Source: a virus. Taken from it: a DNA stretch of 20,513 nucleotides. The stretch is taken from positions 1-20,513 of the IMG/VR virus record IMGVR_UViG_3300043410_001854; one strand, given 5' to 3'. The translations under genes and the position numbers were made by a program. The notes beneath the pieces are model-generated. The model made no database searches. It was not told the origin of the DNA and saw nothing but the letters and a program-made list of their open reading frames with translations. Shown in pieces: positions 1-8,148 of the stretch; position 1 is the stretch's first letter, and each line of letters starts with the position of its first letter.

Positions 1-318
1 TATCATCAGAGCACTGATGTTGTGATGATCCACTATCTTGATGTGGGCATTGGTCGCGATCCTGAAGCTGGCAAGACCAAGCGTCATGGCACTCATGCGT
101 TGCTTTTGCTTGATCCGCGCGGTGCGCCCAACTTTCCTTGGTATGAAAAGATCGAAAGCATCATTCCTCGTCAGGGTCTTACGGTTCTGCATCCCGGCTA
201 TCTTTGGCATGAGACAAACCCGTGGCGTGAAACGGAAGGCGTTCGCGTTGCCATTGTCGTGAACTTTCAAATTGCCAAGCCGGGTTACGGCTCCCTCCAT
301 CAAAAGCTGAACGGGTGA
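1..318 (+). CDS. 2OG-Fe(II) oxygenase, C-terminal part (cut by window edge)
   Basis: The frame is open to the left edge, so only about the last 105 residues are visible and the true start lies outside; the GTG at 22 is probably internal. The fragment resembles the C-terminal half of the double-stranded beta-helix of putative 2OG-Fe(II) oxygenases (PF13759-like). A strand ending in LLLLDPRG is followed by RQGLTVLHPGYLWHETNPW and then GVRVAIVVNF. The H of LWHETNP would be the distal iron ligand and the R of GVR the 2-oxoglutarate-binding arginine. The proximal iron-binding HxD/HxH would lie upstream of the window. The family uses Fe(II), O2 and 2-oxoglutarate to hydroxylate substrates; the substrate here is unknown. 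It ends three bases before the radical SAM gene and is probably cotranscribed with it. The family match is from memory of motifs. Confidence 0.72.
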   Translation, partial: YHQSTDVVMIHYLDVGIGRDPEAGKTKRHGTHALLLLDPRGAPNFPWYEKIESIIPRQGLTVLHPGYLWHETNPWRETEGVRVAIVVNFQIAKPGYGSLHQKLNG

Positions 319-321
319 GCC

Positions 322-1716
322 ATGTTTGAACTTATTCTTCGTGGACCCGCTGGCGACGATGTGACGCTTGAATACGATCCAGCAACCTCGCGCTGCGTGT
401 GGGCTGGAACGGACGAACAGCTTGACGCTGACCGCTTTGGCTTTCAGCCGCCGCCGAAACAATGGCAGAAAGCGTTTGCCGTCAGCCCTAGCAACCCGGC
501 TGGCAAAAGCCGCAAGCCAAAGAACATCAAGATTCAGCTTGGCTTGAAATGCAATTACGCCTGCACCTATTGCAATCAGCGTTCACAGCCGCATGACGGG
601 GAGGCCAATCCCAAAGCGGTCGAACGCTTTCTGTCTAAGATGCCGCAATGGTTTGACATTGATGACGGCGCTGGCGTTCGCGTCGAGTTCTGGGGCGGCG
701 AGCCGCTGGTTTATTGGAAAATGTTGAAGCCGTTGGCCGAGGGTGTGCGCAAGCTTTACCCAAAAGCGCAGTTCAACATGATTACCAATGGCTCTTTGTT
801 CGATCAGGAAAAGGTCGATTGGATTTACGACATTGGTATGAGCATTGGCGTGTCGCATGACGGCCCTGCTTACGAAGCTGGCCGTGGTTCTGACCCGCTC
901 AACAATCCAGAGCAGCGTCGTTGGATTCGCTATGCTTATGACCGGCTGTTTGCCGAACGTCGCATTGGTTTCAACTGCGTCTTGTCTTCCAAGAACGTCA
1001 GCTTGTTTGTGGTTCGCCGCTATCTTGCACTGAAGCTTGGCGTTCCTGAAGAAAACATTCCGCTCAGCACTGAAGAAATCCTACTGCCTTATGATGACGG
1101 CGGCGTGTCAATGTCCATGCTGGATGATCTGACTGCCAAACGCCTGACGCATGTCACGTTCTATGAAGCCATCACTGGTCGCTCGTCTGGCGTTTCGACA
1201 GTCGAGACAAAGACAATGGACTTTTTGAAGTCGATTGCCCAGCAACGTCCTGCTTCTGCGCTTGGTCAAAAGTGCGGCATGGATCAGGAAGGCAACATTG
1301 CGCTTGATCTGAATGGCAACGTCGTCACCTGCCAGAATACGTCGGCTCTGACAAAGCACCGCATTGGCCATGCGGAAGCGTTTGACAGCATCAAGCTTAC
1401 GACTGCGCATCACTGGTCCACGCGCGCGGAATGCGTCAAATGCCCGGTGCTTCAGCTTTGCCAAGGCGCTTGCTTCTACCTTGAAGACAATCTGTGGGCC
1501 AAGGCTTGCGACAATTCGTTTGCCTACAACGTCGGAATGCTGGCCGCTGCGCTCTTTCGCGCAACCAATCGTGTGCTTGTTGAAGTGCGTGGCCCAGACA
1601 TTCGTGGGCGCGGCAACACCGTTGTGCCTGTGATCGAAGGCAACTTCCTCAACAGCCCACTGCCCGAATGGTATTTCGGAGACGAGTTCAAGATTGAAGT
1701 GAGGACCACTCCATGA
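322..1716 (+). CDS. Radical SAM/SPASM domain protein
   Basis: This 464-residue protein has the radical SAM signature CxxxCxxC at C77, C81 and C84, which binds the SAM-cleaving [4Fe-4S] cluster, and a GGEP motif at 125-128 that contacts the SAM amino group. A full C-terminal SPASM pattern follows: C318, a glycine-containing gap, C337, then Cx2Cx5CxxxC at 371/374/380/384, and a last Cys at 396. These residues normally hold two auxiliary Fe-S clusters. SPASM enzymes usually modify peptides or proteins (sulfatase maturases, PqqE, sactipeptide and mycofactocin enzymes), so a peptidyl substrate is likely; which one is not shown. Residues 1-65 match nothing I recognise, and I see no clear RRE. About 60 residues follow the SPASM domain. 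The stop overlaps the next start (ATGA), so translation is probably coupled. All cluster cysteines are intact. Confidence 0.93.
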   Translation: MFELILRGPAGDDVTLEYDPATSRCVWAGTDEQLDADRFGFQPPPKQWQKAFAVSPSNPAGKSRKPKNIKIQLGLKCNYACTYCNQRSQPHDGEANPKAVERFLSKMPQWFDIDDGAGVRVEFWGGEPLVYWKMLKPLAEGVRKLYPKAQFNMITNGSLFDQEKVDWIYDIGMSIGVSHDGPAYEAGRGSDPLNNPEQRRWIRYAYDRLFAERRIGFNCVLSSKNVSLFVVRRYLALKLGVPEENIPLSTEEILLPYDDGGVSMSMLDDLTAKRLTHVTFYEAITGRSSGVSTVETKTMDFLKSIAQQRPASALGQKCGMDQEGNIALDLNGNVVTCQNTSALTKHRIGHAEAFDSIKLTTAHHWSTRAECVKCPVLQLCQGACFYLEDNLWAKACDNSFAYNVGMLAAALFRATNRVLVEVRGPDIRGRGNTVVPVIEGNFLNSPLPEWYFGDEFKIEVRTTP

Positions 1717-1901
1717 GCTACACCTTGAAAGAAGGTTGGACCGCCGAGGTCGAGCCGGAAGAAGAAGAAGGCAAAAGCAAAGTCACCATCAAGCGTGGTG
1801 AAACGCTGTTCGCCATCTATCACGTTGCGCATTACCCCGATGAAAACCCGATCATTGTGGTTGCCGCGCTGTGCCCTGCTGCATTTGCTGACGTTGAATA
1901 A
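1713..1901 (+). CDS. Small acidic protein coupled to the radical SAM gene
   Basis: This 62-residue protein is not recognised. Its ATG overlaps the radical SAM stop as ATGA, and GAGG lies about seven bases upstream. It has a strongly acidic patch near residues 15-19 (EPEEEE), a lysine-rich stretch, and a C-terminal half with hydrophobic runs, one cysteine (in ALCPAAF) and two tyrosines. There is no signal peptide, transmembrane segment or double-glycine cleavage motif. Its size and tight coupling to a SPASM enzyme make it a possible substrate or accessory of that enzyme, but this is inference. It could equally be a small structural or unrelated phage protein. Confidence 0.7.
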   Translation: MSYTLKEGWTAEVEPEEEEGKSKVTIKRGETLFAIYHVAHYPDENPIIVVAALCPAAFADVE

Positions 1902-1912
1902 GGACCACCACT

Positions 1913-2266
1913 ATGATTGAGCAGCTTGTCCCGCGCGTCTTGGCGACCCGCAATGCCGCCCATCAGGCTCATTGGAAGACCAAGAGCTACGCGCAGCACG
2001 TCGCGCTTGATGAATTTTACGACGGCATCCTCGACGTTCTCGACAAGCTGGTTGAAACGTATCAGGGCGCGTTTGGCCTGTGCGATTTCCCGCCCCCGGC
2101 AGGCATCTTGCCCAAGGACATTGTGGCTCACATTGGTCAGGAAGCTGCGTGGATTGACGCCAACCGTTCCAAGATCGCCAAGAACCTTGGCTCACTTGAA
2201 AACATCGTGGACGAGCTGACCGGCGTTTATCTCAAGTCTTTCTACAAACTGTCGAACCTTTCCTGA
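1913..2266 (+). CDS. Small Dps/ferritin-like protein
   Basis: This 117-residue, helix-rich protein resembles phage ferritin-like families and Dps. Residues 17-52 carry HQAHWKTKSYAQH followed by D44 and E48. The order and spacing H17-x11-H29-x14-D44-x3-E48 equals the spacing of the Dps ferroxidase ligands (H, H, D, E). Aligning instead on the HW pair at 20-21, as in Dps, makes the first loop three residues shorter. A C-terminal helix follows a proline-rich loop (FPPPAG, about residues 59-64). At 117 residues it is shorter than usual Dps (about 150-190). Possible roles are iron storage or peroxide protection; sequence alone does not show which. It is the third gene after the 2OG-Fe(II) oxygenase and follows the 62-residue gene by 11 bases. 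AAGGACC upstream serves as a weak ribosome binding site. Confidence 0.75.
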   Translation: MIEQLVPRVLATRNAAHQAHWKTKSYAQHVALDEFYDGILDVLDKLVETYQGAFGLCDFPPPAGILPKDIVAHIGQEAAWIDANRSKIAKNLGSLENIVDELTGVYLKSFYKLSNLS

Positions 2267-2267
2267 T

Positions 2268-2450
2268 ATGGCGGCGGCAATGGCAAACATTAGCGAAACT
2301 GAAGCGCGGCTCAACTCACACGAAGCAGTGTGCATGATCCGCTATGAGGCAATCAATGCGCGTCTGAAAAGGATCGAACACATCCTGATGGCGTCGGCTG
2401 CATTCATCATCGCGACACTTGGCGCGATTGTATTCAAGCTGCCGCACTGA
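2268..2450 (+). CDS. Small membrane protein of the lysis block (XhlA-like layout)
   Basis: This 60-residue protein has an amphipathic, coiled-coil-like N-terminal part (about residues 5-40, with NARLKRIEHIL) followed by one C-terminal transmembrane segment (about 41-57) and a short KLPH tail. This layout is like XhlA/hemolysin-type lysis accessory proteins. It lies between the cassette and the endolysin, in the usual holin position, so a holin or holin-accessory role is likely but unproven. The start is one base after the preceding stop, and its TGA overlaps the next ATG (TGATG), which suggests coupled translation. Confidence 0.65.
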   Translation: MAAAMANISETEARLNSHEAVCMIRYEAINARLKRIEHILMASAAFIIATLGAIVFKLPH

Positions 2451-2914
2451 TGCTTGATCCCTTCACCATACTTGCCACCGCCAAGGCGGCAACCGAGGGC
2501 ATCAAGCAAGCGATTTCGCTTGGCAAAGATGTGCACTCCTTGGTGAAGGACATGACCGCAATCATGGGCGCGGAGGCGGACCTTGCCAAGCTGGCGGCTG
2601 ATCCGCCGCGTGGCTGGGGAGTGCAGGGCAGCGCGGAAGAGATTGCGTTGCAAGCCCTGACCGCTCGCAAGCAAGTCGAAGCGCTGAAGCAACAAGTGCA
2701 AAACGAGCTGGTCGCTCAATACGGTCTGCGGATCATGGACGAATTAAACCGCGAGATCACTGCTGTTCGCAAACATCAAAAAGCTATGCAGTTAAAAGCG
2801 GCCAAAGAGCGAGAAGAGTTTGTGCGGATGATGATGTGGGTCGTGCCGACTGTCGGCATCCCGATCATTTTGTTGATCGTCATTGTGACGGTCATTGTGA
2901 AACACGGGGGCTGA
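2450..2914 (+). CDS. Membrane-anchored phage protein, possible holin
   Basis: This 154-residue protein has an N-terminal region rich in alanine and lysine (LDPFTILATAKAATEGIKQA), a long predicted coiled coil at about 68-125 (QALTARKQVEALKQQVQNEL onward), and one strongly hydrophobic segment at about 128-150 (VVPTVGIPIILLIVIVTVIV) ending in KHGG. Proteins of this kind lie beside endolysin genes in marine and alphaproteobacterial phages, judged from memory. It follows the 60-residue membrane protein with an overlapping start and precedes the endolysin by three bases. A holin or spanin-like accessory role is inferred from position. An internal virion protein is an alternative. Confidence 0.7.
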   Translation: MLDPFTILATAKAATEGIKQAISLGKDVHSLVKDMTAIMGAEADLAKLAADPPRGWGVQGSAEEIALQALTARKQVEALKQQVQNELVAQYGLRIMDELNREITAVRKHQKAMQLKAAKEREEFVRMMMWVVPTVGIPIILLIVIVTVIVKHGG

Positions 2915-2917
2915 CCC

Positions 2918-3649
2918 ATGCAAATGTCTAATGCTGGCATCGACGTGATGCTGAAGAAGTTCGAGGGCTGCAAGCTCAAGGCATATCGTTGCCCGGCCAA
3001 TGTCCTCACGATTGGTTACGGCCATACGTCAGCAGCGGGTGCGCCCGAAGTGACGGAAGGCATGACCATCAGCCAGCAGGACGCGCTCGACATTTTGCAC
3101 CGCGATCTGCGCAAGTACGAGGAAGGTGTCGAAAAGCTGGTCAAGGTGCAGCTTACGCAGAACCAGTTCGATGTGCTGGTGGACTTTGCTTACAACGCCG
3201 GACTGGGTGCGCTCGCCAAGTCGGGCCTTCTTCGCGCTGTGAATGCGCGCGACTTCGACAAGGTTCCCGACGAGCTGATGAAGTGGACAAAGGGCGGCGG
3301 CAAAGTGCTGCCCGGTCTGGTCAAACGTCGTCAGGCTGAAGCCGTCTGGTGGCGCGCGCATGAGCATCATGCTGACGACCATGAGGACCATCGTCATGAG
3401 CCGGACACTGTGCCGGTCAAGTCGATGGCCGAATCAAAGCAGGGCAACGGCGCGCTTGCGGTCGGTGCACTCGGTTCGGTGGGCGCTGCGCAGCAGGTGG
3501 TCGAGCAAGTGCAGGATGCCAACAACTTGTTCGACACTGTGCTGGACCTTCTGCACAAGCCAAGCTTCGTCATCATGGTGGTGATCGTCGGGATTGGCGC
3601 AGCCATTTGGTATTGGCGCAAGCAACACATGGAGGCGCACGGTGTTTAG
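2918..3649 (+). CDS. GH24 (T4/P22-type) lysozyme endolysin with C-terminal membrane segment
   Basis: This is a 243-residue peptidoglycan hydrolase. Residues 8-145 form a glycoside hydrolase 24 domain with the catalytic pattern E-8aa-D/C-5aa-T as E16, C25 and T31, inside FEGCKLKAYRCPANVLTIGYGH. The later part has FDVLVDFAYNAG and LPGLVKRRQAEA WW, typical of the family. After the domain comes a histidine/aspartate-rich linker (148-162, HEHHADDHEDHRHEP), an Ala/Gly/Val stretch and one transmembrane segment (216-233) followed by RKQ. Ordinary members are about 150-170 residues, so the last 80 residues are an extension. There is no N-terminal signal or SAR helix. The ATG at 2918 follows the previous stop by three bases; an ATG at 2924 is also possible. 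Confidence 0.93.
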   Translation: MQMSNAGIDVMLKKFEGCKLKAYRCPANVLTIGYGHTSAAGAPEVTEGMTISQQDALDILHRDLRKYEEGVEKLVKVQLTQNQFDVLVDFAYNAGLGALAKSGLLRAVNARDFDKVPDELMKWTKGGGKVLPGLVKRRQAEAVWWRAHEHHADDHEDHRHEPDTVPVKSMAESKQGNGALAVGALGSVGAAQQVVEQVQDANNLFDTVLDLLHKPSFVIMVVIVGIGAAIWYWRKQHMEAHGV

Positions 3650-3875
3650 CGTTCTGCTCTCTCCCCTTGGTCGCTATTTCGCCTTGGCTGGGATCATCCT
3701 CATGATCCTTGCCGGGGCTTACATCAAAATTCGTTCTGACGCCGTGGCCGCTGTAGAGGCACAGGCTACCGTCGATGCCCTACGGAGGACCACTGATGCG
3801 ATACGCGCTGGCGATTCTGTCCCTGTCTCTGCTGACCGGGTGCGCGACCACGACCGCAACGAGCGTTCAGAATAA
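3642..3875 (+). CDS. Rz-like inner-membrane spanin subunit (i-spanin)
   Basis: This 77-residue protein starts at GTG 3642. I chose this start because GGAGG lies about six bases upstream and it gives an N-terminal transmembrane segment (about residues 11-28, RYFALAGIILMILAGAYI). Longer readings into the endolysin frame add nothing membrane-like. A charged helix follows (VEAQATVDALRRTTDAIRAG), as in Rz proteins, which span the periplasm and pair with an Rz1 lipoprotein to disrupt the outer membrane. It overlaps the endolysin stop, and an Rz1-like lipoprotein is embedded in its 3' end in another frame, the classical spanin layout. It is shorter than lambda Rz. Confidence 0.75.
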   Translation: MFSVLLSPLGRYFALAGIILMILAGAYIKIRSDAVAAVEAQATVDALRRTTDAIRAGDSVPVSADRVRDHDRNERSE

Positions 3876-3996
3876 GGCGGTCTGTTCCGTCTGGAAGGAC
3901 ATTGGCTGGTCCAAGAAGGACACGACTCAGACGATCACCGAGGTCAAGGTGAACAACGCTCGCCGGGATGTGTGGTGTCGTGACGTTGCGGAATAA
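3796..3996 (+). CDS. Rz1-like outer-membrane lipoprotein (o-spanin)
   Basis: This 66-residue protein starts at ATG 3796, with GGAGG at 3784-3788. An in-frame ATG at 3775 would add seven residues ahead of the signal. It has a lipoprotein signal peptide with lipobox LLTGC at residues 12-16, so C16 would be lipidated and the mature protein has about 51 residues. Two further cysteines lie near residues 30 and 61. The first 80 bases overlap the Rz-like gene in a different frame, the known Rz/Rz1 arrangement. Mature Rz1 is usually proline-rich, which this one is not, so it belongs to a more divergent o-spanin type. Confidence 0.78.
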   Translation: MRYALAILSLSLLTGCATTTATSVQNKAVCSVWKDIGWSKKDTTQTITEVKVNNARRDVWCRDVAE

Positions 3997-4036
3997 CTTG
4001 TGCCGACTTTTGTGCTGGTTCAGACCGCTTTCGTTC

Positions 4037-4051
4037 ACGCGCTTTGCGCGT
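4037..4051. repeat. Short perfect hairpin
   Basis: ACGCGC-TTT-GCGCGT forms a six-pair stem with a three-base loop between the Rz1-like gene and the attachment region. It has no T-tract, so it is not a standard terminator. Confidence 0.4.
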
Positions 4052-4067
4052 CCTGCGGAGTGGGGCA

Positions 4068-4096
4068 TTGACCCCAAGCTCTGGAAACATTAGAGG
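4068..4096 (+). promoter_or_regulatory. Sigma70-like promoter ahead of the tRNA half
   Basis: TTGACC at 4068-4073, a 17-base spacer, and TAGAGG at 4091-4096 make a good -35/-10 pair. The predicted start at about 4103 lies just before the first base of the tRNA half at 4107. The phage therefore seems to carry the promoter of the tRNA as well as its 5' half. Read from sequence; no transcript data. Confidence 0.55.
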
Positions 4097-4106
4097 AATC
4101 GGGCGC

Positions 4107-4148
4107 GGTCCCGTAGCTCAGCTGGATAGAGCAGCGGTTTCCTAAACC
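4107..4148 (+). other. attP candidate: 5' half of tRNA-Arg(CCU)
   Basis: GGTCCCG (acceptor 5' strand), TA, the D-arm GCTC-AGCTGGATA-GAGC, and the anticodon arm GCGGT-TTCCTAA-ACC are all present, with anticodon CCT at 4141-4143. After ACC the anticodon stem should close with GC, but the sequence reads CC and then departs. There is no TpsiC arm (GTTCRA) and no 3' acceptor strand, so this is not a working tRNA gene. Integrase lies 55 bases away and reads toward it, and late genes lie on the other side. This fits an attP core identical to the 5' part of a host tRNA-Arg gene, with exchange in or near the anticodon loop. Recombination would restore a full tRNA at the end next to the lysis genes. 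Confidence 0.72.
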
Positions 4149-4174
4149 CCCCTGCGCGTTTCCTCCCGAGACTA

Positions 4175-4208
4175 GAAGTGGCTGCGCTCCAGCCACTTCC
4201 TTTTATTT
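4175..4208 (+). terminator. Rho-independent terminator between attP and int
   Basis: GAAGTGGCTG (4175-4184), loop CGCTC, CAGCCACTTC (4190-4199) forms a perfect ten-pair stem followed by CTTTTATTT. It would stop rightward transcription from the lysis genes or the tRNA half. Its T-tract overlaps the integrase stop codon. On the other strand the hairpin is followed by TAGTCT, so termination of int mRNA would be weaker. Confidence 0.82.
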
Positions 4209-5258
4209 GCCGGTTATAAACCGCTGCTCCTGTAACATGATTTGTGCCGTCTCGCCTTTGGCGATGAGCGCCTGTTCGGGCGTCAAGAACTCAAGATACA
4301 TCTCCGTCGTCTTGATCGACGTGTGCCCCAAGTCTTTCTGAAGCCGATAGATATTGCCGCCAGCCTGTAAGAAGCGGACTGCATAAACGTGCCGCAGGTC
4401 ATGGAACTTGAAGCGCACAAAGGAACGTGCCGATTTTTGTACCCGCTTCACCACTTTGCTGAAGTAGGACGCTGGGTTCTTCCACGCCTCGCCGTCGTGG
4501 TGGAAGACCACGGTCGAGGTGATGTGCCGAGGGCAGGACTTAAAGAGAGCGGCGGCTGCATCGTTGAGCCGGATCACCCGGCGCTTGTTGCGCTTGCCGA
4601 TCAGCGTTAGCTCGTCGCCGTGCAAGTGGGTCCAAATGGACTTGCACAGCTCGTTCTGCCGCGCGCCTGTCAGCAACGAAGCCCGTGCCATCAGAGCCAT
4701 TGATGGCGAGCAATCAGCCAGCACCAGCTCAATGTCTTTCTGCGGCGGCAGCACAATAGGATCGCGCCGCTCGGTCATGCGTTGCAGCTTGTCGAGGGCA
4801 GGGTTGCCTTCACGCCAGTTTCGGTCATCGGCATAGGCTAGAAGCTGGGAAAGCGCTCCCAAGTCGCGCTTGATGGTGGCAATCTTCACCGTCTTCTTGC
4901 GGCGCTGAACGTACTCGTTGATTTCTTTCTTGCCGATCTGATGGATCAGCAGACTGCCAAAGTCCACGGCCAGCTGAGTAAACGAGGTGGCGTATCGTCG
5001 TCGGGTCTTGTCGGATAGCCCGTCAGCCTGATCGTCTTGCGACCATGCGATCACGACATCCCGCCAGCCTACGGCCTCCTCGCCTCGGTGGCGTCGGCCA
5101 TAGGCTGTCTCTCTCAGCTCATTGGCCGCGCGCTGCGCAACCTGTCGATTGCGTGTGCGTAGGCTTTCTCTTGTTTCGATGCCGCCAATGGTAAAGCGAA
5201 CCCACCAGATACCGCTCTTGCCCCTCTGGTAGATGTGGGTGTCCTTCTGTTCAGCCAT
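4203..5258 (-). CDS. int: Tyrosine recombinase integrase
   Basis: This 351-residue integrase is counted from the ATG at 5258 (MAEQKDTHIYQRG). The frame stays open upstream to 5315, but those residues overlap the excisionase domain and are not integrase-like. The N-terminal part (about 8-70) is the arm-binding type (GIWWVRFTIGG), followed by a SAM-like core-binding domain and the catalytic domain. Catalytic residues: R200 (LLTGARQNEL), H286 and R289 (FHDLRH), H312 (LGHTSIKTT) and the nucleophile Y321 (MYLEF). All are present. It catalyses integration and excision at the adjacent tRNA-Arg attachment sequence. It is the last gene of the leftward operon, so it is likely expressed with the early and recombination genes. 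Confidence 0.95.
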   Translation of the reverse strand: MAEQKDTHIYQRGKSGIWWVRFTIGGIETRESLRTRNRQVAQRAANELRETAYGRRHRGEEAVGWRDVVIAWSQDDQADGLSDKTRRRYATSFTQLAVDFGSLLIHQIGKKEINEYVQRRKKTVKIATIKRDLGALSQLLAYADDRNWREGNPALDKLQRMTERRDPIVLPPQKDIELVLADCSPSMALMARASLLTGARQNELCKSIWTHLHGDELTLIGKRNKRRVIRLNDAAAALFKSCPRHITSTVVFHHDGEAWKNPASYFSKVVKRVQKSARSFVRFKFHDLRHVYAVRFLQAGGNIYRLQKDLGHTSIKTTEMYLEFLTPEQALIAKGETAQIMLQEQRFITGK

Positions 5259-5434
5259 GTCTCGCGCTCTTTGGCTTCGATGAATTGCTGCAACTGGACT
5301 GGATCGAACGTCCAAGTATGTCCGATCTTAGCAGCACCCGGCAACTCACCCCGAAGGGCAAGATGCTGGGTGGTGCGTGTTGTCAGGCCGAGCAAGGCTG
5401 ATGCTTGCTCGACCCGGATGCGTGGCTTGCTCAT
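5114..5434 (-). CDS. xis: Excisionase-like helix-turn-helix protein
   Basis: The first ~58 of 106 residues form a compact MerR/HTH_17-type DNA-binding domain (VEQASALLGLTTRTTQHLAL, then RGELPGAAKIGHTWTF, then DPVQLQQFIEA), as in excisionases and AlpA proteins. Its position directly upstream of int supports a recombination directionality factor. The remaining ~48 residues overlap the integrase N-terminus in another frame by 145 bases. They are basic and low-complexity, and may only be the run to the next stop. The start overlaps the stop of the preceding gene (ATGA). Confidence 0.78.
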   Translation of the reverse strand: MSKPRIRVEQASALLGLTTRTTQHLALRGELPGAAKIGHTWTFDPVQLQQFIEAKERETWLNRRTPTSTRGARAVSGGFALPLAASKQEKAYAHAIDRLRSARPMS

Positions 5435-5811
5435 GCGTCGGGGTTGTCAACCTTCACGGGGGCAAACATTTCAGCCATGCGCTTGATGTCCTCGTCCACC
5501 TGCTCTTCGATCTCGACCGGGATCGGAACAGTCGGGCGAATCTTTTCGGAGCGCGCTTCGGCAAACTGTCCAGCGAACGCAAGGTAGTTCACCCCGTCTA
5601 CATAGTTGTCGAGCTTCTGTGCGCTGGTCCGAATGCGCGCCATCTTCAACGCAGTCATGAAGATCGCAGCGTGCCAAGGCGTAAGCTGTTCGCCTGTCAT
5701 CAGATTGTAGATCAGGCAGACCCGCTCATAGAGTGCGTTCTCATCACCGTAGTCAGCACCACGGTCGCGCAACATGGCAACCGATTCGGCCAGCAATTCT
5801 TTATGGTTCAT
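5431..5811 (-). CDS. DUF6378-like phage protein
   Basis: This 126-residue protein starts at ATG 5811 (MNHKELLAES), preceded by a GAGAAA element and overlapping the previous stop. The upstream in-frame ATG at 5874 lies within the preceding gene. The pattern RGADYGDENALYERVCLIYN, then TPWHAAIFMTALKMARI, then LDNYVDGVNYLAFAGQ resembles a family common in phages (DUF6378, function unknown), sometimes compared with MazG-like all-alpha folds. The C-terminal ~35 residues are acidic. It lies in the leftward operon just before the excisionase. Confidence 0.72.
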   Translation of the reverse strand: MNHKELLAESVAMLRDRGADYGDENALYERVCLIYNLMTGEQLTPWHAAIFMTALKMARIRTSAQKLDNYVDGVNYLAFAGQFAEARSEKIRPTVPIPVEIEEQVDEDIKRMAEMFAPVKVDNPDA

Positions 5812-6026
5812 CTGATTTCTCTTTCCTCTGCCCAGCGTCGAAGGTCGCTCTTGAAGTTGCGATGCCCACGCCAATCGGACCCTGATGCTGGGATGACAAA
5901 GAACCGGGTGCGTGTTCCATGTGAAACGTGCAGCCGTATGTGTTTGCGTGTGTCTTCAATTCGGATGAGTCGGCAGCCAACACACTCGACTGCCGACAAG
6001 TAAGGTTCGATCTGCTTTCGTTTCAT
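5808..6026 (-). CDS. Small basic phage protein, HicA-like pattern
   Basis: This 72-residue protein has the pattern RKHIRLHVSHGTRTRFFVIP, then SGSDWRGHRNFKSDLRR, seen in small basic alphaproteobacterial phage proteins. It faintly recalls the HicA dsRNA-binding fold (KHxxL/RL and a basic C-terminus). No HicB-like partner is adjacent, so a toxin role is not supported. Its stop overlaps the next start (ATGA), and it begins eight bases after the DUF932 stop. Confidence 0.62.
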   Translation of the reverse strand: MKRKQIEPYLSAVECVGCRLIRIEDTRKHIRLHVSHGTRTRFFVIPASGSDWRGHRNFKSDLRRWAEEREIR

Positions 6027-6033
6027 GCGCCTC

Positions 6034-6888
6034 CTATGCAGCCACGCCCTTCAGCTCAGCCATGCGCTGCGACAGATGCCAGAGCGCACGGTTGAGCTTC
6101 ACGTCTTGGTCAATGCCATTGACCTGCCGGGTGCGAATCCAGCGGACCTGATTGGTTTCAGGATTGGTGGTGCGGTAGGCGAGGCCACCACGGATGACGT
6201 TCTCCTGCACACGGTTGAACACGGTCCAGAGATCGTCAGCCAGATCGTCGGGACGACGGGCTGCAAGAAGGTGAGTGGTCGGCATGGCGTCGGCTGTGGT
6301 GCTGTCACCAAAGCGGATCATCTTGGCCGACTCGGCAAACGCCAGCTTTTCATCCGGCGCAAGCGTCACGTCGCCCCACTGGGCGGGCGCTGCCAGCGCG
6401 TTCTGCGCTTGGGTCAGCACGGTGTAAGTCCCTTCGATCACCTTGTTCTGAACATCGCCAGAGTGTTTGACCTTGGTGGACTCCACCGTGCCGACTTGCG
6501 CTACGAGCGAATTGAGACAGCGGATGCGGAACAGGCCAGCCATCAGCTCGTATGCAGAGGTGCCATCGTTGGCATTCTTCAAAAGGATTTCGCAGACCGT
6601 ATCGCCCACCTTGTACTTGGCGTCGTCGTCAATGCGACGCAGACGGATCAAGTGCTTGGTGAACTCACGGCGGCTTTCGTCGCGCGAGTTGGACTGCTTG
6701 ACGCCAACCGGCATGAAGCCTTCGCGTGTCAAGCCACGCAGGATTTCAATGGTCGGAATCGGGCGAAAGCGGTCGCTTCTGCTTTCGTGCTTGTCAATAG
6801 CAAAGATTGACGGAGCCATGCGGTGCAGCTCGTCTTCAGTTAAAGCGCGAGCCGAATCAAATCGAGCAGTGTTCGTGTAGATCGTCAT
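6034..6888 (-). CDS. DUF932 phage/plasmid-like protein
   Basis: This 284-residue protein starts at ATG 6888 (MTIYTNTARFDSARALTEDELHRMAPSIFA). The frame is open to 7110, but that part overlaps ssb and is unlike the family. The body matches DUF932 (TIGR03299-like), a widespread phage and plasmid family of unknown function: GFMPVGVKQSNSRDESRREFTKHLIRLRR, RIRCLNSL, KHSGDVQNKV, and the AELKGVAA end. Members often lie near recombination and replication genes, as here between ssb and the excisionase block. A GGAATTGACC element ahead of the start is a weak ribosome binding site. Confidence 0.85.
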   Translation of the reverse strand: MTIYTNTARFDSARALTEDELHRMAPSIFAIDKHESRSDRFRPIPTIEILRGLTREGFMPVGVKQSNSRDESRREFTKHLIRLRRIDDDAKYKVGDTVCEILLKNANDGTSAYELMAGLFRIRCLNSLVAQVGTVESTKVKHSGDVQNKVIEGTYTVLTQAQNALAAPAQWGDVTLAPDEKLAFAESAKMIRFGDSTTADAMPTTHLLAARRPDDLADDLWTVFNRVQENVIRGGLAYRTTNPETNQVRWIRTRQVNGIDQDVKLNRALWHLSQRMAELKGVAA

Positions 6889-6918
6889 GGTCAATTCCTC
6901 TGGGGTTGGGGATTGGGT

Positions 6919-6950
6919 GGAGGGGACGCCGTACCGACAACGCCCCCTCC
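6919..6950. repeat. Imperfect GC hairpin between ssb and DUF932
   Basis: GGAGGGG-A-CG at 6919-6928 pairs with CGCCCCCTCC at 6941-6950. A second short dyad AGCTGG...CCAGCT lies at 6958-6976. Neither has a T-tract on the leftward strand. They may protect or process the mRNA between ssb and DUF932. Confidence 0.4.
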
Positions 6951-6976
6951 GTTTCCAAGCTGGGCTGGGGTCCAGC

Positions 6977-7381
6977 TCAGAAAGGGATGTCTTCGTCGGG
7001 CGGCAGCTCGGCAGCAGCTGGGCGGTTGCGCGTTTGTGCCGGTGCGTCGTCGCGCTGCTCGCTGTTGCTGAGCAAGACGATGTGACCGCCGAAGGAAATC
7101 TCAACTTCAAGAGCGGTGCGCGTGTCGCCGTTTTTGTCTTTGAATGCGCGCGTCTGAAGCTGGCCGACGACCATCACTTGATTGCCCTTGCGGACATAGT
7201 TCTTGATGATTTCGTTCTTGCGGTCATCCCAGCAGACGACGCTGTACCAAGTCGTCACCTTCTCATCCTTGACCTTGCGGTTCACGGCGATGGAGAAGTT
7301 GCAGACTGTTTTGCCTTTGACGTCTTTGAACTCGGGCAGCTGCCCGACGTTGCCGACAATGGTGATCTGAGCGAAAGACAT
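6977..7381 (-). CDS. ssb: Single-stranded DNA-binding protein
   Basis: This 134-residue protein has an OB-fold: SFAQITIVGNVGQLPEF, CNFSIAVNRK, TTWYSVVCWDD, YVRKGNQVMVVGQLQTRAF, RTALEVEISFGGHIVLL. A disordered linker and the acidic tip DEDIPF follow; the tip recruits partner proteins in bacterial SSBs. It coats ssDNA in phage replication and in recombination with ERF and the exonuclease. It starts one base after the stop of a 59-residue gene in the same operon. It is shorter than E. coli SSB (178), mostly in the linker. Confidence 0.96.
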   Translation of the reverse strand: MSFAQITIVGNVGQLPEFKDVKGKTVCNFSIAVNRKVKDEKVTTWYSVVCWDDRKNEIIKNYVRKGNQVMVVGQLQTRAFKDKNGDTRTALEVEISFGGHIVLLSNSEQRDDAPAQTRNRPAAAELPPDEDIPF

Positions 7382-7561
7382 TCATTGCTCCCTGATGAGG
7401 ACGATGTTGCGGCCTTCCTTGCGGAAGGTCATGCGGAAGTCGGGCTTGCGTTTGAGGACACGGCGAATGAGTTCGCGCGCCGTGCCTCCTGTTGCTGCGC
7501 CAATGGTGATGGACTCATTGGGCTTGAGGGTTTCAAACGGGGTGAGGTTGTAACGAGCCAT
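7382..7561 (-). CDS. Small basic protein between erf and ssb
   Basis: A 59-residue frame starts at ATG 7561, overlapping the erf stop (ATGA), and ends right next to the ssb start. The product begins MARYNLTPFETLKPNESITI, contains GAATGGTARELIRRVLKRKP, and ends in RNIVLIREQ. It is basic, with a predicted strand-helix-strand character. I do not recognise it. Tight coupling on both sides and no gap in the operon support it as a real gene. Confidence 0.68.
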   Translation of the reverse strand: MARYNLTPFETLKPNESITIGAATGGTARELIRRVLKRKPDFRMTFRKEGRNIVLIREQ

Positions 7562-8148
7562 CAGTTTGTCGCCTCGCTGCCATTGGCCTTTGTCAGAAGC
7601 GCCTTCCGCTGTGCAAAGTTGGAGCGGAGAACCTGCATCTGTGCAGGTGTCATGGCAGACGAATGCTGCTTAATCTGCGGAGCGACTTCTTCTTCCAGCT
7701 CTTTGATGGACGCAGCCATCTGGATCGTCATCTTCAGCGTGGCGACGACTGCCGACTCATGCACGACTTCCTGATCTTCGTCGGGATCGTCACCGCTTTC
7801 GAGGCCGAGCGCTTTGAGCAGCGCATACTTGACGGCGTAGCTGATTGCCTTGCCCGGCCCCTTGTCCTGATCGTCAATGCCATAGCCAGCCGAAGCCACG
7901 TCGATGTAGTCGGTCGGCTCGTCAATGTTGACAAACCGCACGGTCATCGTGACTTCCGTACGGTTGCCCTGCTGATGCAGCCGCATGTCGTAGGGGTAAT
8001 AGATCACGCCGTTGCTCAGCAGCGCCGGTCGTACCTTGGCAGTGACGGCATCGTGGCTGACAATGCTGTAACGCATCCCCTGCTTCTTCTCTTTCTGAAT
8101 GTAGGTCACGTCGCGCATGACCGCAGCCAGTCGTTGATGGATGTTCAT
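7561..8148 (-). CDS. erf: ERF-family single-strand annealing protein
   Basis: This 195-residue protein has the family's core at 88-116: GYGIDDQDKGPGKAISYAVK, then YALLKALGL. Preceding strands (YSIVSHDAVTAKVRPALLSNG, TEVTMTVRFVN) also fit ERF/RAD52-like annealing proteins, as in phage P22. It anneals complementary ssDNA and works with an exonuclease and SSB, both encoded nearby. The acidic segment after the core (SGDDPDEDQ) is typical, and the C-terminal helix-rich end is variable. The start overlaps the preceding stop (ATGA). A perfect copy of the operator dyad lies inside its 3' part at 7633-7646. Confidence 0.92.
   Translation of the reverse strand: MNIHQRLAAVMRDVTYIQKEKKQGMRYSIVSHDAVTAKVRPALLSNGVIYYPYDMRLHQQGNRTEVTMTVRFVNIDEPTDYIDVASAGYGIDDQDKGPGKAISYAVKYALLKALGLESGDDPDEDQEVVHESAVVATLKMTIQMAASIKELEEEVAPQIKQHSSAMTPAQMQVLRSNFAQRKALLTKANGSEATN
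7633..7646. promoter_or_regulatory. Operator-like dyad inside erf
   Basis: CTGCA-TCTG-TGCAG is a perfect match to the CTGCA-N4-TGCAG sites near the repressor, extended by one more pair on each side. It lies in coding sequence and has no partner 30 bp away, so it may be chance or a weaker accessory site. Confidence 0.3.

Follow-up and report, generated by a model that had tools for sequence, protein, structure and literature searches.

At the left edge of a temperate phage fragment, a 2OG-Fe(II) oxygenase and a radical SAM/SPASM enzyme are encoded by neighboring genes whose products probably modify, post-translationally, the tip of a tail fiber. The proposed target is a C-terminal tract in which every second residue is cysteine and most of the others are asparagine (hereafter, the NC tract), and the whole is best explained as a fiber-tip maturation module. 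The radical SAM family is linked to fibers with such tracts in both directions: the tract is found when the enzyme is the query, and the enzyme is found when the tract is.

The DNA analyzed (hereafter, the window) spans 20,513 bases, the whole of one IMG/VR virus record, and is part of the genome of a temperate podophage of the T7-like type. It encodes a head-tail connector (PF12236, E 2e-96) and a T7-type capsid assembly protein (PF05396), together with a tyrosine integrase, an S24-type repressor, ERF and YqaJ recombination proteins, and a Phage_lysozyme (2918-3649, E 1e-46). The window has no near match among 50,697 phage records. A search for its left continuation, using the oxygenase as the query, returned distant relatives only; the record L002 begins within its radical SAM gene.

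The left-edge genes and the radical SAM/SPASM family

Four co-directional genes sit directly ahead of the lysis genes (Table 1), in the order truncated oxygenase, radical SAM/SPASM enzyme, 62-aa open reading frame (ORF), and DUF5856, followed by small membrane-type proteins and then the lysozyme. The radical SAM enzyme exceeds the cut-offs of PF04055 (35.3 bits, cut-off 29.5) and of the SPASM model TIGR04085 (33 bits, cut-off 27), and matches PHROG_1802 with an E of 4e-62. Its catalytic cysteines are conserved: in addition to the SAM-cluster motif, each of the seven cysteines of the SPASM region, which is expected to hold two auxiliary clusters, is kept in 58–59 of 59 relatives. At least 544 candidate stretches in IMG/VR encode relatives of this enzyme. 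The family is carried by genomes of siphophage and podophage type and also by cultured Alpha- and Betaproteobacteria, there within prophage-like loci. Among the 50,697 phage records, a close enzyme is found only in the Achromobacter phages JWF and 2-1. No NCBIfam equivalog scored above its cut-off, the nearest being PapB (NF047865). Two other assignments were tried and rejected: viperin (NF038283), at 49 bits against a cut-off of 180 and with a SPASM domain present in the window enzyme, and QueE, whose score fell under its cut-off.

The oxygenase gene is cut by the left edge of the contig. It matches PHROG_81 (E 1.7e-7) and, less strongly, PF13759 (E 9e-4, 20 bits), where its score lies under the Pfam cut-off of 27, as expected for a truncated gene. 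It can be aligned with 26 oxygenases of the relatives, full-length ones included, most of which adjoin a radical SAM gene, and it is 40–63% identical to several of them. The invariant histidine of its HPGYLWHE motif is one that we take, from what is known of 2OG oxygenases, to be a probable Fe ligand. The 62-aa ORF can be regarded as a real gene because it has homologues in L011 (73 aa) and L145, the only two found, each directly after the radical SAM gene. A role for its product as a RiPP precursor was considered and rejected: it has a single cysteine and no repeats, and is missing from most loci.

These results agree with much of the initial annotation, which had read from the sequence alone a 2OG-Fe(II) oxygenase, a radical SAM/SPASM enzyme, and a tiny acidic gene between the latter and the last gene, all in a co-directional run of close or overlapping genes placed before the lysis genes; the family matches, the conserved residues, the homologues of the small gene, the coordinates, and the lysozyme match bear out each of these points.

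Table 1. Coordinates and supporting evidence for the features at the left edge of the window.
Feature	Position	Strand	Evidence or remark
2OG-Fe(II) oxygenase, C-terminal ~105 aa	1..318	+	PHROG_81, PF13759; N-terminal part beyond contig edge
Invariant His codon in HPGYLWHE motif of oxygenase	208..210	+	Same His in 27 aligned sequences
Radical SAM/SPASM enzyme, 464 aa, PHROG_1802 family; putative module core	322..1716	+	PF04055, TIGR04085, PHROG_1802
CNYACTYC, the CxxxCxxC SAM-cluster motif	550..573	+	Invariant across 59 relatives
SPASM region, seven Cys (C318, C337, C371, C374, C380, C384, C396)	1273..1509	+	TIGR04085, conservation
Acidic 62-aa protein; putative accessory	1713..1901	+	Overlap of 4 bases with radical SAM gene
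DUF5856, Dps-like helical protein; neighbor outside the module	1913..2266	+	PF19174, PHROG_858

Linkage of the radical SAM enzyme to fibers with an NC tract

Relatives of the radical SAM enzyme were gathered by alignment-guided scans of IMG/VR and GTDB genomes, up to 80 relatives per scan, so that the counts below refer to the matches listed and are not totals. Related sequences are not independent, an effect that was lessened by clustering at 80% identity; this gave 68 lineages, 56 of which have at least 5 kb upstream of the enzyme. The recurrent partner is a fiber-type protein with a Cys/Asn-rich C-terminus ending in alternating residues (e.g., NCNCNCACDC). In the forward count, a tract ORF lies near the radical SAM gene on the same strand in 50 of the 56 lineages, usually 0–3 kb upstream with a median gap of 1.4 kb, and a tract on the opposite strand was seen at one locus only. 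Tracts with at least four XC units accompany the enzyme in 44 of 56 lineages versus none of 79 enzyme-less phage loci (Fisher p 7e-25), the latter being a control set chosen by DUF5856 in which, among the matches listed, no radical SAM gene occurs. For the reverse direction, IMG/VR was scanned with a DNA pattern for NCNCNC[NDAT]C, and the enzyme was not used as a query. Among the matches listed, 38 pattern-only loci have 4.5 kb or more of sequence beyond the tract, and 37 of these carry a radical SAM gene downstream, the forward and reverse tests sharing one family profile. No tract was found in six of the 56 lineages, mostly the lowest-scoring and divergent ones, and most of these lie in apparently chromosomal neighborhoods. 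Tract-less divergent members include L149, L153, and L154 (Variovorax) and L123 and L124 (Bacteriovorax), all apparently chromosomal, and may use another substrate.

The tract is a C-terminal feature of the fibers that carry it. It ends no more than nine residues from the C-terminus in 57 of 69 tract ORFs, and 10 of the remaining 12 continue straight from the tract into a Hint-like region, which starts, e.g., with CFPAGT. Hint domains self-cleave, and cleavage at this place would make the tract the new C-terminus; fibers that close with a Hint-like domain may thus expose the tract by self-cleavage. Examples in which this domain directly follows the NC tract at the fiber C-terminus are L010:9712-11163, L011:5504-7075, and L015:5401-6342. 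Across the 69 ORFs, the residue X of (XC)n is Asn in 66%, Ala in 17%, and Asp in 10% of cases. The codons are mixed, with 141 AAC and 111 AAT for Asn and 211 TGC and 169 TGT for Cys, which, together with the Ala and Asp substitutions, indicates that selection acts at the protein level; a mere DNA microsatellite was ruled out on these grounds.

The carriers are fibers of several kinds, with a T7 tail-fiber N-domain in 3 of 45, collagen repeats in 5 of 45, and other PHROG tail-fiber families represented; Pfam Hom_end_hint was found in 7 of 45. In the same carrier search, the tract itself was covered by no Pfam or NCBIfam model. The distribution is what would be expected if one kind of tip had been grafted onto unrelated fibers, with the enzyme accompanying it each time. 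In JWF and 2-1, an NC-tract fiber with a Hint domain lies two genes upstream of the radical SAM gene (in JWF, the fiber is PJWF_00028, with the tract NCNCDCNCNC); the records of both phages annotate the enzyme by domain alone and do not note its link to the fiber.

Between the fiber and the radical SAM enzyme, 40 of the 56 lineages encode a protein of ~300 aa. Its predicted model contains an Ig-like C-terminal domain (pLDDT 83.8). In the PDB, Foldseek found nothing beyond weak, generic Ig-type matches to this model (e.g., intimin), whereas seven caudovirus proteins without a name matched it strongly. L015:6342-7289 and its homologues make up a conserved phage protein with no named family, tightly linked to the module. 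In the nearest relatives (L011–L015), the gene order is fiber, 300-aa protein, then an oxygenase, a second radical SAM enzyme, or neither, followed by the main radical SAM enzyme and the lysis region. No fiber and no NC tract are visible within the 20,513 bases of the window itself. Because its own fiber would lie off the left end of the contig, the tract that we ascribe to it is a prediction based on the gene order shared with L011, L012, L014, and L015.

Oxidative partners of the enzyme and the place of DUF5856

A 2OG oxygenase is encoded near the radical SAM enzyme in 24 of the 56 lineages, and the pair recurs beside an NC-tract fiber in many of them. The recurrence lends good support to the earlier suggestion that a protein of the phage itself is the target of two different modifying chemistries, and the repeated presence of oxidative enzymes at these loci suggests further modification of the same fiber tip. 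The identity of the partner varies. In L012:6980-7987 and L017:6959-7981, as well as in L013, a different, second radical SAM enzyme takes the place of the oxygenase, directly upstream of the main one. Fatty-acid-desaturase-like proteins adjoin the radical SAM enzyme and an NC-tract protein at L005:4378-5819, L008:855-2296, L048:4353-5872, and L037:2-418, and are perhaps an alternative oxidative partner. The locus L287:3393-10427 combines, in a single run, three TNGNG/NC-rich fibers, a 300-aa Ig-type protein, five 2OG oxygenases, and a radical SAM enzyme, possibly reflecting several separate hydroxylations of one fiber family.

DUF5856, the last of the four left-edge genes, behaves differently. 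Its product matches PF19174 at 62.7 bits (gathering cut-off 34.6), and residues H17, H20, H29, D44, and E48, which follow a Dps-like HX8H...DX3E pattern, are kept in 79–80 of 80 sequences. A single-sequence structure prediction gives four helices, but with low confidence (pLDDT 58.8), and the score against the Dps model is 13 bits for a cut-off of 114. Of the mini-ferritin first read here, the Dps-like metal residues are real, and the ferritin identity is not confirmed. None of the 79 other DUF5856 phage loci, among the matches listed, contains a radical SAM gene, and most radical SAM loci examined lack DUF5856. The relative L290 is particularly informative. Its DNA similarity to the window opens exactly at position 1913, the start codon of DUF5856, runs at 80% identity to 2446, returns at 3419, and continues from 4220 onward. 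Upstream of DUF5856, which is retained along with the next gene, L290 carries different fiber genes, one of them glycine-rich; the genes for the oxygenase, the radical SAM enzyme, and the 62-aa protein are all missing there, and its whole 35-kb record is without radical SAM. Comparing L290:1-9033 with window positions 1913-7904 therefore reveals a natural fiber-module swap in a close relative without the modifying enzymes: enzymes come and go with the fiber, while DUF5856 stays. DUF5856 was accordingly rejected as a member of the module.

These observations bear on the reading originally given to the region, i.e., a four-gene cassette for handling iron, with a mini-ferritin as the iron source for enzymes that modify a protein of the phage or a peptide of the host. 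The four genes are adjacent, the Dps-like metal residues would suit such a role, and DUF5856 also follows the radical SAM gene in L012 and L013, but its separation from the enzyme in all 79 other loci, its persistence alone in L290, and its absence from most radical SAM loci make this reading extremely improbable. The genes are individually real; as a unit of four they are largely refuted, the lack of co-occurrence affecting DUF5856 alone and not the pair of oxygenase and radical SAM enzyme.

Proposed chemistry of the fiber tip and competing readings

We propose a tail-fiber tip module whose maturation half would consist of the radical SAM enzyme and the oxygenase, the 62-aa gene having an accessory role. 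The other half would be a fiber with a Cys/Asn-rich mature C-terminus ending in (N/D/A-C)n, expected just upstream of base 1. Late in infection, around the time of fiber folding, the radical SAM/SPASM enzyme would modify the tract, probably assisted by the oxygenase. The tract is the putative radical SAM substrate on the strength of the two-way linkage, the constant strand and order, the conservation, and the loss of the enzyme with the fiber. The likeliest chemistry would be thioether links from the cysteine sulfur to a carbon of the neighboring Asn, Asp, or Ala, and the oxygenase would hydroxylate Asn or Asp of the tract. The outcome would be a fiber tip that is both rigid and stable, at the place where contact with the receptor is expected; from this position, we infer a rigid or reactive receptor-binding tip with a role in adsorption.

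Among the closest known systems is the family's own PHROG_1802 entry, the ‘radical SAM domain-containing protein’ of JWF and 2-1, which has an NC-tract fiber upstream. The His-Xaa-Ser repeat system, in which HxsA is paired with HxsB and HxsC, offers another case of a repeat-rich segment matched to radical SAM maturases. The window enzyme matches HxsB and HxsC weakly, with scores far under their cut-offs, but that system involves no phage fiber, a different repeat, and two dedicated radical SAM enzymes. PapB, the freyrasin ranthipeptide maturase, shares the radical SAM and SPASM domains and is the best NCBIfam match (window residues 69-386). It is a Cys-Asp/Glu thioether maturase that works on repeated cysteine motifs with acidic partners and accepts Cys-Xn-Asp with n = 0–6 (PMC9413430), a spacing tolerance that would fit N, D, or A next to Cys in the tract. 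However, the window enzyme scores 61 bits against the PapB equivalog cut-off of 340, a likeness in working only, which makes the thioether bond type a guess. Unlike PapB, the enzyme would act on a virion fiber, at a C-terminus in which Asn and Cys alternate, and a gene for a small precursor peptide was not found. Asn is commoner than Asp in the tracts, and a radical SAM Cys-Asn thioether was not found in the literature searched.

Other fates of the same tract can be weighed against the thioether. Since the reaction type is not fixed by radical SAM alone, the enzyme could carry out an epimerization or another C-H modification; Asn is the main tract residue, and the core domain matches that of the epimerase YydG (E 1.5e-7). 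We consider this unlikely, as the presence of all seven SPASM cysteines is more in keeping with a thioether-forming or dehydrogenating maturase, and epimerization would leave the cysteine at every second position unexplained. Conversion of the tract cysteines to formylglycine, which would yield aldehydes and a tip able to bond covalently to amines, is the reaction type of the anaerobic sulfatase-maturating enzyme (anSME), full-length radical SAM/SPASM structures of which (4k36-4k39) match the family and which acts on a Cys-containing protein substrate. Of the solved structures matched over their full length, 4k36 scores best against the family profile (E 2e-17 over profile positions 75-401); the annotation of the JWF homologue is likewise anSME-type, and the putative substrate is Cys-rich. 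In anSME, however, an Asp directly after the second SPASM cysteine is the proposed base, and this position is Gln (53) or His (6) in the 59 relatives, never Asp. The anSME motif C-x-A/P-x-R is absent from the tracts inspected, and the anSME model scores only 41 bits (cut-off 349), so that formylglycine appears very improbable.

A further reading dispenses with enzymatic modification of the tract altogether and treats it as a metal-binding, Fe-S, or disulfide tip, with the enzymes acting indirectly or on another protein, such as the ~300-aa neighbor. Alternating cysteines do resemble metal-binding tracts, and the neighbor shows a linkage of its own in the 40 lineages mentioned above, but some linked loci (L003, L006, and JWF) are without it, and of all partners the tract keeps company with the enzyme most constantly, whichever of the two serves as the query; we regard this reading as improbable. 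Enzymatic maturation of the tract by the radical SAM/SPASM enzyme is thus the explanation retained.

More broadly, we lean slightly toward a general and previously unrecognized way of building receptor tips in tailed phages, in which a phage radical SAM/SPASM enzyme would mature modular NC-tract ends, in many cases alongside 2OG or other oxidative enzymes and at times with a Hint domain that exposes the tract, to give a new cross-linked residue in the virion. No description of such a fiber-tip module was found in the open-access literature searched, which is weak evidence of novelty. If the proposal is correct, phage fibers would be chemically remodeled by radical chemistry, beyond folding and trimerization, adding a new layer to adsorption biology and bringing peptide-maturase chemistry into virion assembly. 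The IMG/VR candidate stretches would then be a new source of enzymes, and the isolated phages JWF and 2-1, as the only carriers of a close enzyme among the phage records, would serve as natural test systems. Among cultured bacteria, the genome of Thalassobacter stenotrophicus CECT 5294 holds three separate copies of the radical SAM gene and its tract (L126, L128, and L158), which are probably prophages.
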